DNA of 59,860 nt, from positions 1 through 59,860 of the forward strand of contig NZ_CAJNOB010000005.1 of NCBI RefSeq assembly GCF_905250085.1, given 5' to 3'. A program made the translations under genes and the position numbers. This DNA is from Candidatus Methylacidithermus pantelleriae. GTDB lineage: Bacteria; Verrucomicrobiota; Verrucomicrobiia; Methylacidiphilales; Methylacidiphilaceae. A model generated the notes under the pieces. That model made no database searches, had not been told where the DNA came from, and saw only the letters and a list, made by a program, of their open reading frames with translations. Positions 2,738-5,423 of this stretch are shown piece by piece (position 1 is the stretch's first letter; each line of letters opens with the position of its first letter).

Positions 2738-3877
2738 ATGGGTTCGTCGACGTATCCCCCATTTGATCTTGGCAGGCTTTTGCGCACCGTTTTCGATCCC
2801 CAGCCGGGCGAGCGACTGGCACTCCTCATCGATCTTCCCGAACCACAAGACCTTCCAAAGCTTCCTTTCCTCAATCATCCTGCGCTTGTCCCGCAGCGCT
2901 ATGGCTACGAGGTTTTCTATCTTGGCTTACACAACGGCCTTTTGAAAGAGTTTGGACTTTCTGGCGGACAATTGTATGCGTACCGCACCACTGGCGGAAG
3001 TAATTTAGACCTTCCCGAGGATGCCTACGATTTGGAAGGGCGTCGTTACTGGTTTGATGAACACATCTATCCCTCGTACGATATTTTTCTTTGTTTCTCT
3101 AGCTTCTCCGCAACGGCACCCCTGACCGCTAAAGCCAAACAGTTTGGGTTCCGGGGAGCAACCTTACATGGACTCAACCAGATCATCCTAGAGACAGGGC
3201 TTTCGGCGGATTATGAGGAAGTAAGTCGCAGTACGGAAAAATTGCGCAAAGGATTAACTTGCGCGGACGTTTTTACATTAGAGTTCCGAGTGGGTGACCA
3301 GGTGTTTCTCCTTTCCCTTGCGACCTCCGGGCAAGAGGCACAGAAAAGCCATGGGATCTGTCGTGGAAAGCATCCTGATGTGGTCAATCTTCCCGCGGGA
3401 GAGGTCTACTTTGTTCCGACAGGAGCTCAGGGTGAATTTCCCATTCGGCTGGAGGACGGAACGGTAGCTGTTGCACGGGCGGAAGGGGGAAGGGTAGTAG
3501 AATTTTCGCTTCTGCGAGGGGATAGACAAGGGGTCGATCTTTTAAACGAGAAGATCCGTGTTGACGCGGCTGCCGGGGTGATCGGGGAATTGGGTTTTGG
3601 AACGCAGCCATATCCGCCTTCGGGTAGGGACATCCAGGATGAGAAGATTCTTGGCACGATCCACCTTGCCCTGGGAAGGAACGATCACTTGGGCGGCGAG
3701 GTTTCTCCGGAAAAGTTCCGGATCAAAAGAAACGCAACCCATGACGATATTCTCTACGCGCCATTTAAGACCCCGGAAATCGACCTTCTCCAGGTCGTGA
3801 TGGAGCGGCAGGGCCAGAAAACCGTACTTCTTACCCACTACTCCCCGGCACCGTATCTTTTGTCGCTTCTGGCTTAG
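2738..3877 (+). CDS. M29-like metal-dependent aminopeptidase
   Basis: A 379-residue cytoplasmic protein resembling the C-terminal metal-binding half of M29 aminopeptidases (AmpS, aminopeptidase T). Likely metal ligands are present in order: Glu in GELGFGT, Glu in DEKILGT, His in GTIHLALG, and His plus Asp in HDDILY. The family releases N-terminal amino acids using two divalent metal ions. The N-terminal half is more divergent than in well-known members. The start is the ATG at 2738, 7 bp after a strong AGGAGGA; a TTG at 2705 is less likely. The methyltransferase gene follows after 9 bp, so the two are probably co-transcribed. Substrate is unknown. Confidence 0.7.
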   Translation: MGSSTYPPFDLGRLLRTVFDPQPGERLALLIDLPEPQDLPKLPFLNHPALVPQRYGYEVFYLGLHNGLLKEFGLSGGQLYAYRTTGGSNLDLPEDAYDLEGRRYWFDEHIYPSYDIFLCFSSFSATAPLTAKAKQFGFRGATLHGLNQIILETGLSADYEEVSRSTEKLRKGLTCADVFTLEFRVGDQVFLLSLATSGQEAQKSHGICRGKHPDVVNLPAGEVYFVPTGAQGEFPIRLEDGTVAVARAEGGRVVEFSLLRGDRQGVDLLNEKIRVDAAAGVIGELGFGTQPYPPSGRDIQDEKILGTIHLALGRNDHLGGEVSPEKFRIKRNATHDDILYAPFKTPEIDLLQVVMERQGQKTVLLTHYSPAPYLLSLLA

Positions 3878-3886
3878 CCTTTTGGC

Positions 3887-4633
3887 ATGGAAGAATTCTA
3901 CGAAACTCAGCTGGCCCTGGGGCAGTATCTCCTTTTTCATTACGGTCCGCCGTCTTTGCAGCTGCCGTATCCCTTTGGTCCCAGGGATTCGCTCGATTTT
4001 CCTGCACGTTGTGTCCGAGAGGTCGTCGCCGAGCTTCCCCTTTCTGAAAATGCCCGAGGATGTGACGTAGGTTGCGCGGTGGGTAGGAGTGCCTTTGAGC
4101 TCGGTCGATTCTGCCGGGAAGTAGTGGCGCTGGATCGTTCTCGCGTTTTTATCGAAGCTGCGTGCCGGTTGCAGGAAGAAGGCAAACTGGAGGCGCCTAT
4201 CCTTGTAGAAGGGGATCAAACGGAAAAGGTAGAGTTTTGCGTTCCTCCCGAGCTCGATCGGCAACGGGTTCGATTTGTTTGCGGCGACGCTCTGGAGCTT
4301 CTTCCTCGGCTGGGCCAGTTCGATCTGGTTGTAGCATGGAATCTCTTGGATCGCGTGCAAGACCCGGGTCTCCTTTTGGTTCAGCTGGAGAGGGCCGTGG
4401 AGCCGGGGGGATGGCTTGCGCTTTCTTCTCCCTACACCTGGCTTTGCACCTATACGCCGAAGGAAAAATGGTTAGTACCCGGATTTGGGGAGCTTCAAAA
4501 AAGGCTGGGGGTTTCGCTTGAGCTTGTCCAAAGAAAGGATCTTCCCTTTCTTCTACGAGAACACGTAAGAAAATATCAGTGGTGCGTTGCCGAGGTGACC
4601 GTTTGGCATAAGCCGAAAGGGGCACCTCGTTGA
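3887..4633 (+). CDS. Ovothiol-type 4-mercaptohistidine N1-methyltransferase
   Basis: A 248-residue SAM-dependent methyltransferase. The pattern matches the C-terminal methyltransferase domain of OvoA, which N-methylates 4-mercaptohistidine to ovothiol A: YETQLALGQYLLFHYG near the N-terminus, SAM motif I DVGCAVGRSAFELG (60-73), AWNLLDRVQDP, SPYTW near residue 180, then FLLREHVRKYQW. Here it is a free-standing protein with no sulfoxide-synthase half. No sulfoxide synthase gene was seen in the window. It directly follows the M29-like peptidase and precedes a c-type cytochrome lipoprotein. The family call is fairly firm; whether the cell makes ovothiol is an inference that needs an ovoA-like partner elsewhere. 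Confidence 0.8.
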   Translation: MEEFYETQLALGQYLLFHYGPPSLQLPYPFGPRDSLDFPARCVREVVAELPLSENARGCDVGCAVGRSAFELGRFCREVVALDRSRVFIEAACRLQEEGKLEAPILVEGDQTEKVEFCVPPELDRQRVRFVCGDALELLPRLGQFDLVVAWNLLDRVQDPGLLLVQLERAVEPGGWLALSSPYTWLCTYTPKEKWLVPGFGELQKRLGVSLELVQRKDLPFLLREHVRKYQWCVAEVTVWHKPKGAPR

Positions 4634-4739
4634 AAAAGGCGCCAAGGGCGGAGAGAAAAAGAAAACTCTTTCTTTTTTGAGAAGCTTTTTAGAGGCAGGC
4701 TTTTTTGGCGAACCCAGTAGTCCTTGGTTGGGCTTTCCC

Positions 4740-5423
4740 ATGGCAGTTTCCCCTAAGCGTGTCTTACAAAAAGGCACCGGGGCCTTTCGGTGTCGGTGGG
4801 TAGCGGTTTTCCTTTTTTCTTTGATCTTTGGGGGATGCTCGGCTCCGGAAGACCCAGCAGTTATCCGCAGGCGCTTCCGTGAGAACGAGGAAAAACTTCA
4901 AGGACTGGCCGAGCGTGTTCATCAATTGGAGAAACGAATCCTTGCTTTGGAAGCTACTCAGTATCGCCCGGGTTTTGGAGAGCTTATGGATGGGATCTAT
5001 CAGCATCACCAAAGACTGTGGGAAGCCGGTTCCACGGGACAATGGGAGCGTGCCTCGTTCGAACTGGCGGAGATACGGGAGTGGCTGGAGGAGCTTGAAA
5101 AACTCTATCCGCGCTATCCGAAGTTGCCCAAGGCAACCGAAGAGATGGTTAAAGAAACTCTCCTTGGCCCATTAAACAGCGTGGAGCTTGCCGTCAAAGA
5201 GAAGAATGCCGTTCAGTTTGCCGCAGGCTACCAGGAACTCTGCGGAGCCTGCACATCGTGTCACGGTGCTGCGGGTTTATCCTACCTTGTGATTGCCGCC
5301 CCACCCACCACTCCCCCCGGCCAAGAGAGAAAGCTGTCTCCCCCAAAAGAGGAGCCGGTGGCTCCCGCTATCCCAGTACATCCGGGCGAAGACGCCGAGG
5401 AAGGACGACCCGGGGATCCCTGA
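4740..5423 (+). CDS. Cytochrome c'-like lipoprotein with one CxxCH
   Basis: A 227-residue predicted lipoprotein. Basic residues and a hydrophobic stretch (VAVFLFSLIF) lead to the lipobox FGGC with Cys33, so it should be anchored on the outer side of a membrane. Residues 45-170 are helical and charged, starting with a coiled-coil-like segment (LAERVHQLEKRI). One haem-binding motif, CTSCH, lies at 171-175 near the end of the helical region, the arrangement of cytochrome c' and c556 proteins. The last 50 residues are rich in proline and acidic residues. The start at 4740 is preferred because the signal sequence then has normal length; an in-frame start at 4677 would add 21 residues. Electron partner unknown. 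Confidence 0.7.
   Translation: MAVSPKRVLQKGTGAFRCRWVAVFLFSLIFGGCSAPEDPAVIRRRFRENEEKLQGLAERVHQLEKRILALEATQYRPGFGELMDGIYQHHQRLWEAGSTGQWERASFELAEIREWLEELEKLYPRYPKLPKATEEMVKETLLGPLNSVELAVKEKNAVQFAAGYQELCGACTSCHGAAGLSYLVIAAPPTTPPGQERKLSPPKEEPVAPAIPVHPGEDAEEGRPGDP

Follow-up and report, generated by a model that had tools for sequence, protein, structure and literature searches.

We describe here a free-standing methyltransferase of the OvoA C-terminal family that is paired with an uncharacterised metalloenzyme encoded just upstream of it, both genes lying in the window, by which we mean the whole stretch of 59,860 nucleotides that was analysed. What is new is this pairing, which is never found alongside OvoA in the phylum sample; the methyltransferase alone would merely add one more unremarkable enzyme to a known family. 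That the two genes serve the same pathway is close to certain. The best explanation of what they do, as far as their sequences can tell, is a route that leads to a methylated thio- or selenohistidine without OvoA and for which the partner would supply the substrate, a reading that we put forward tentatively and to which we would give slightly less than even confidence.

The methyltransferase gene occupies positions 3887-4633 of the forward strand as an unbroken open reading frame of 248 residues, with an ATG at 3887 and a stop codon that ends at 4633. Its product matches TIGR04345 (ovoA_Cterm), the putative 4-mercaptohistidine N1-methyltransferase domain of OvoA, over all 242 positions at 172.5-173.6 bits, a narrow pass of the cut-off of 170. 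All 14 control genomes match this profile at a loose E, and just one of them does so above the cut-off; a loose match alone would be weak evidence. By sequence, the best solved relatives are OvsM (9bxh, E 1.8e-47), OvoA (8khq, 3.2e-37) and OvoM (9bxl, 5.7e-33), the names OvsM and OvoM being those of the PDB entries and titles. The predicted model (pLDDT 96) superposes on OvsM with SAM at Z 32.8 and an rmsd of 1.4 over 231 residues (43% identity), on OvoM at Z 32.6, the two being tied by Z, and on OvoA 8khq at Z 31.5 (36% identity), after which the matches fall to the carnosine N-methyltransferase CARNMT1 at Z 21.8. Residues common to OvoM, OvsM and most OvoA domains are kept at Y5, Y14, Y19, N152, L153, R156 and T190, and likewise at W195, R224, R228, K229, Q231 and W240; the OvoA domains themselves keep R228 in 7 of 12 and K229 and Q231 in 8 of 12 each. 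Profile, nearest solved structures and predicted model together describe an OvoM/OvsM-like, free-standing N-methyltransferase of the 5-thiohistidine type, and the first-pass annotation is confirmed where it saw a free-standing enzyme of the OvoA C-terminal family with no sulfoxide synthase nearby. Its similarity to the solved enzymes makes 5-thio- or 5-selenohistidine its probable substrate.

Sulfoxide synthases carry a PF03781 domain, which was found in one OvoA of the present data set and is expected in OvsA as well. The whole-genome search for an OvoA- or EgtB-like sulfoxide synthase, suggested when the gene was first annotated, was run on the assembly of the window (2.46 Mb, 99.91% complete) and came back empty: neither TIGR04344 nor PF03781 gave a match at E 0.001. 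Both searches work, because both profiles match in some of the control genomes (PF03781 in 4 of 14, TIGR04344 in 3 of 14). TIGR04344 is also above its cut-off in none of the 40 genomes of the same family and order, the window genome included, where weak matches occur in 15 and reach 55 bits at best. Within the limits of the assembly, this excludes a sulfoxide synthase at another place in the genome, be it OvoA, EgtB or OvsA, and tests for a bifunctional OvoA (with its sulfoxide synthase module either fused or encoded anywhere else) and for the OvsA/OvsM ovoselenol pathway (OvsA as partner) both failed. The ergothioneine route through EgtB and EgtD was ruled out likewise, there being no match to EgtD (TIGR03438) in the whole assembly at E 0.001 and none to PF03781. 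An ovothiol-type product is still compatible with this absence, provided that the thiohistidine comes from the partner.

The evidence that ties the two genes together comes from their distribution. In a phylum sample of 240 genomes, the window genome included and 90% completeness requested, we scored the methyltransferase by TIGR04345 at E 1e-25, OvoA by TIGR04344 at E 1e-40 and the partner by profile A1. The methyltransferase is present in 47 genomes, OvoA in 12, and the partner strongly in 35 and weakly in 2. The 35 methyltransferase genomes that are without OvoA (47 minus 12) are exactly the 35 strong-partner genomes, and the partner occurs in none of the 12 OvoA genomes. The first-pass annotation allowed for a partner encoded elsewhere; no sulfoxide synthase was found in the assembly, and the likely partner lies next door and occurs in 35 of 35 OvoA-less methyltransferase genomes of the sample. 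The two weak matches (G182 and G236, E 6e-44 and 4e-41) are sister-family proteins and were not counted among the 35; in G208 the strong match is accompanied by another, weak one. Fisher's test gives p 3.6e-32 for the partner against any methyltransferase, a value inflated by kinship, and p 6.9e-43 against the OvoA-less methyltransferase, where the 12 OvoA genomes count as non-carriers, the grouping is post hoc and kinship inflates p again. Twenty of the 35 pairs lie within 200 bases of each other, 6 within 2.5 kb, 3 farther apart on one contig and 6 on separate contigs; since 15 are thus non-adjacent (9 on the same contig, 0.4 to 17 kb apart), adjacency alone cannot explain the link. The pattern also varies within families: the window genome has both genes and four g2 genomes of its family (f1) have neither, and family f11 likewise includes genomes with both and genomes with neither. 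Methylacidimicrobium has the pair, and its sister genus g2, probably Methylacidiphilum, lacks it.

In a second phylum, that of G280 (244 genomes), the link is weaker, and this counts against the best explanation. Only three genomes there have the partner: G280 with a canonical methyltransferase, G331 with a divergent one at 132.6 bits, below the cut-off, and G347 with no methyltransferase match at 1e-20. A divergent free-standing methyltransferase-like protein occurs in G311 and G396, from which the partner is absent, and weak partial methyltransferase matches of 90-98 bits occur in G313, G314, G333 and G512.

The gene loci tell a similar story. Relatives of the partner at E 1e-3 were found in 520 stretches of the genome collection, and the best 80 of these 520 were analysed as loci; their labels are mostly Verrucomicrobiota, with some Planctomycetes and others, and some may be mis-binned. 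Cultured carriers of the pair include Brevifollis gellanilyticus (L117) and Methylacidimicrobium tartarophylax (L048). The pair is adjacent in relatives as well; the methyltransferase lies directly downstream of the partner in 52 of the best 80 loci and 3.4 kb away in 1, and the two reading frames meet in a 4-base overlap (NTGA) in 13 of the 80. All of the other 27 partner genomes have a TIGR04345 match elsewhere, 23 above the cut-off and 4 under it; 26 of these methyltransferases are full-length or nearly so, and the match in G276 (93 bits, partial, in a 379-aa frame) is unconvincing, which leaves 26 of 27. Distances between partners and between methyltransferases correlate at r 0.54 across 80 genomes (that of the window and those of 79 loci), compared with 0.17 for the best of 1000 shuffles, and at r 0.45 when only the 26 non-adjacent pairs are taken.

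The partner itself, placed at 2738-3877 of the forward strand, is a protein of 379 residues separated from the methyltransferase by a spacer of 9 bases (3878-3886). Its reading frame is open from a TTG at 2705, and alignment points to 2738 as the likely start. The first-pass annotation had called this upstream gene a peptidase; the gene is there, but the name does not hold. Against the Pfam M29 profile PF02073 the protein scores 18.5-18.6 bits, below the cut-off of 27, and among 18 members of the partner family the profile matches only the window protein at E 0.1. Neither NCBIfam, Pfam nor PADLOC names it, and sequence searches with the partner and with a sister protein found no relative among solved structures. 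Its predicted model (pLDDT 94) has its best fold match in NicX (7cn3, 7cup) at Z 27.0, with an rmsd of 3.5 over 306 aligned residues and 13% identity, followed by the M29 aminopeptidases AmpT, AmpS and PepS (Z 18.4-19.7) and the crocagin proteins CgnE (Z 13.6) and CgnB (Z 11.7). There is no sequence match between NicX and the partner at E 1, and hhalign gave no link, the partner alignment being too little diverse. The family is strongly conserved, 80 of its proteins averaging 65% identity in all pairwise comparisons.

Six putative metal-ligand letters, spread over 3401-3748, were located by alignment to M29, with codons counted from 2738: E222 (3401-3403), E284 (3587-3589), E302 (3641-3643), H309 (3662-3664), H335 (3740-3742) and D337 (3746-3748), the last three of them read directly in the sequence and all six invariant in 48 of 48 aligned proteins. 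They align with the M29 metal ligands E250, E316, E340, H345, H376 and D378 of AmpT, the letters having been checked in the alignment. This alignment was bridged by a sister family at 28-32% identity (L178 973-2112, L179 5353-6426 and L180 6418-7491), whose members score 30.1, 26.3 and 20.3 bits on Pfam M29 against the cut-off of 27. Of the three genomes that carry it, G182 and G236 have no TIGR04345 match at 1e-25. Of the M29 catalytic motif EEHYHD (PMC7023490), the partner keeps E, E, H, H and D and has no counterpart of the catalytic Tyr. The Fe(II) ligands of NicX, according to PMC7910607, are His265, Ser302, His318 and Asp320, of which the partner keeps two, as H335 and D337, with E284 at the place of His265 and H309 at that of Ser302. 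On the predicted model it passes as a NicX fold, but a plain NicX is ruled out by the two missing ligands, and an ordinary M29 peptidase by the Pfam score and the missing Tyr. From the model, we describe the partner as an M29/NicX-fold metalloenzyme whose metal site resembles that of the peptidases but lacks their Tyr; neither family name fits it. Because the M29 letters (E, E, H, H, D) are kept and not the NicX set, the putative ligands do not point to an oxygenase, which counts against the best explanation.

A partner with such a site might instead act on imported material. In this alternative a thiohistidine conjugate or peptide would be taken up and hydrolysed by the M29-type partner, and the freed 5-thiohistidine would then be methylated. 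All of the M29 metal-ligand letters are indeed kept, but the Tyr on which M29 catalysis depends is missing, the fold is nearer to NicX and the score lies under the M29 cut-off. Neighbouring genes speak to both sides as well. Genes of a polar amino-acid ABC importer lie 3' of the methyltransferase in 6 of the 80 loci (L049, L052, L060, L074, L083 and L086), with a binding protein and a permease in all six and an ATPase in at least five, one representative per cluster having been typed; importer genes also follow the methyltransferase in L183, and an importer permease and ATPase precede it in L238. An importer beside the methyltransferase could mean uptake rather than synthesis, yet among the 8 proteins scanned beside the window pair no importer gene was recognised. 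In 5 of the 80 loci (L095, L110, L119, L121 and L122, with L121 typed) a TPMT-family methyltransferase follows directly. Taken together, the importer and TPMT neighbours favour an amino-acid-like, perhaps thiol, metabolite and would leave room for uptake. We consider salvage of this kind unlikely, and it is nevertheless the strongest of the alternatives.

Other features of the neighbourhood are recorded for completeness. Just 3' of the methyltransferase, 4677-5423 of the forward strand encodes a protein with one CxxCH haem-binding motif; it has no Pfam or NCBIfam match, and no relative of it occurs in 25 relative loci with the methyltransferase. At 59-1879 of the reverse strand, a Roadblock/LC7 protein, a small GTPase-like protein and an unknown 245-aa protein stand in a row, which we take to be reminiscent of bacterial polarity modules. 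Scans of the locus for promoters and terminators gave no more than shuffled sequence. A phage setting was ruled out, pattern scans of viral contigs having found no relatives, as was a defence setting, since the PADLOC mad2 match (51 bits, residues 44-186) covers the general methyltransferase domain.

A second alternative, which we judge less likely again, holds that the pair makes some other amino-acid-derived metabolite, the methyltransferase having changed its substrate. It rests on positions 226 and 232 (codons 4562-4564 and 4580-4582, span 4562-4582, forward strand), where alignment to the solved enzymes shows His and Trp in the window enzyme against Thr and His in OvoM, OvsM and the solved OvoA; a test for Thr226 plus His232 failed, and this departure from all three solved enzymes is also a point against the best explanation. 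Among 93 distinct free-standing methyltransferases, a set chosen as lying outside OvoA genomes and not by presence of the partner, position 232 is W in 59, Y in 16, L in 14, F in 2, C in 1 and a gap in 1, and never His; position 226 is His in 86 and Thr in 6, and position 16 is mostly hydrophobic rather than Glu or Asp. However, most of the residues common to OvoA, OvoM and OvsM are kept, and changes like H226/W232 also occur in methyltransferases of OvoA genomes (W232 in L181 and L182, REH with Y232 in L183) and in the OvoA-fused domain L229 (REH); Thr226 and His232 may not be essential. Conversely, the free-standing enzymes of the partner genomes G278, G280 and G300 are of the RETxRKxQH type and fall with OvoA and OvoM in the tree (98/93); OvoA was not found in the examined stretches of these genomes and may lie elsewhere in them, a weak point of the case for interchange with OvoA. 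In all three partner genomes with such an enzyme (L237, L238 and L239), an ADP-ribosylglycohydrolase family gene lies beside it.

The family tree bears on the same question. From 176 methyltransferase matches, 142 were kept after repeat OvoA-locus searches, identical rows and pieces under 200 aa had been dropped, and two unrooted trees were made from this set, one of 73 rows by random thinning and one of 53 hand-picked rows. Methyltransferases linked to the partner and those linked to OvoA intermingle in the trees, a pattern in favour of one class of substrate for both. The suggestion in the first-pass annotation of a different thiol-histidine substrate thus finds some footing in H226 and W232 and little in the tree. 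The OvoA fusion L229 is basal to the partner-linked rows in the 73-row tree (support 83) and is not fixed in the 53-row tree; neither it nor L183 is placed by the trees as nested inside the partner-linked rows. On the 53-row tree an AU test (p 0.0004) rejects a partner-linked clade that excludes L181, L182, L183 and L229 together, a group that was named after the first tree had been seen. L243, a true OvoA (602 bits on TIGR04344 and 246 on TIGR04345), has a methyltransferase domain of the REH type that groups with the partner-linked rows against OvoA/OvsM (100/98), its exact branch not being fixed.

In some genomes OvoA coexists with a second methyltransferase. G194 and G259 have OvoA, no partner and a second free-standing methyltransferase, which nests with four partner-linked sequences (99/92); G254 also has OvoA, no partner and a second such enzyme (L183), whose exact branch is not fixed by the tree. 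Among the 12 OvoA genomes, G160, G194, G254 and G259 have an OvoA methyltransferase domain with changes at P182, E225, K229 and Q231, and that of G254 is also without N152, L153 and R156. Loss of function in these four domains is a possibility suggested by their residues, but they may work, because they still score 276-315 bits on TIGR04345. G160 counts against the best explanation, as its OvoA methyltransferase domain is changed and yet no second methyltransferase was found in that genome at 1e-25. Its OvoA (L245) is read in two open frames of 561 and 428 aa that overlap in the profile, a split gene or a frameshift. In the lineage of G194 and G259, OvoA appears to occupy the partner's place next to a methyltransferase of the partner-linked kind, and because these partner-less genomes carry a methyltransferase nested among partner-linked ones, OvoA and the partner look interchangeable as suppliers. 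Both kinds of methyltransferase occur with both suppliers, as expected if the two kinds act on one substrate or on very similar ones.

A selenium product, with the methyltransferase acting as an OvsM and 5-selenohistidine made by the partner or by some unseen gene, is improbable: OvsM is the best solved relative by sequence, has the highest identity by fold (43% against 33-36%) and on both unrooted trees separates the OvoA/OvoM rows from the partner-linked ones by its position between them, but OvoM equals it by Z and the PF03781 protein expected of OvsA is absent from the genome.

We return to the reading in which the partner and the methyltransferase form one OvoA-independent pathway. In a first step, the partner would supply 5-thiohistidine or an analogue instead of the sulfoxide synthase of OvoA, in the simplest form by a metal-dependent placing of sulfur on histidine; in a second, as the family of the methyltransferase suggests, a methyl group of SAM would be transferred to the imidazole ring, either of 5-thiohistidine or of the corresponding selenium compound, to yield the antioxidant ovothiol A or something close to it. 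We infer the substrate, the product and the partner's taking of OvoA's place, and its chemistry is the least certain part of the explanation; that it supplies the substrate in place of OvoA is a proposition on which we lean marginally to the doubtful side. More doubtful still is the general form of the claim, that an M29/NicX-fold metalloenzyme unrelated to sulfoxide synthases provides a second, OvoA-independent synthesis of 5-thiohistidine (or 5-selenohistidine) in many Verrucomicrobiota and some other PVC bacteria, with ovothiol-type metabolites in many supposed non-producers.

Ovothiol A is made by three enzyme activities, of which OvoA provides the carbon-sulfur step, as set out in PMC12631010, and the carbon-sulfur step of ergothioneine has been invented more than once, according to PMC9516567. 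If the partner replaces OvoA, the same would hold for ovothiol, whose carbon-sulfur step would have been invented at least twice, and ovothiol-type metabolites would occur in many bacteria that OvoA-based genome surveys call non-producers. Among the literature matches listed, with most subscription papers outside the scope, we found neither such a gene pair nor ovothiol without OvoA, and none that links ovothiol with Methylacidiphilum.

Several known systems resemble parts of this pair. The partner is like the M29 aminopeptidases AmpT, AmpS and PepS in fold and in its metal-ligand letters and differs from them in lacking the catalytic Tyr and in scoring under the Pfam cut-off. With NicX, a non-heme Fe(II) dioxygenase of 2,5-dihydroxypyridine, it shares the fold and the last two ligands, His-x-Asp, whereas Glu284 and His309 and the want of any sequence match set it apart. 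The methyltransferase resembles the C-terminal domain of OvoA, the bifunctional ovothiol synthase (8khq), but comes without a sulfoxide synthase module and with a partner gene of another fold. It is closest to OvsM of Marinimicrobium koreense and OvoM of Sulfuricurvum (PDB 9bxh-9bxn), free-standing seleno- or thiohistidine N-methyltransferases with which it shares family, size, free-standing form, fold and most of the conserved residues; in contrast to them, it has H226 and W232 in place of Thr and His, and its genome has no PF03781 or TIGR04344 gene. A precedent for the pair as a whole is MES, the metallopterin ergothioneine synthase, described in PMC9516567 as having been found through histidine methyltransferases that lack a sulfurizing enzyme and are co-encoded with an unrelated enzyme. 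MES makes another product, belongs to another enzyme family and was tested, whereas the window pair is known from sequence; in both cases a histidine methyltransferase without a known sulfurizing enzyme is co-encoded with an unrelated one.
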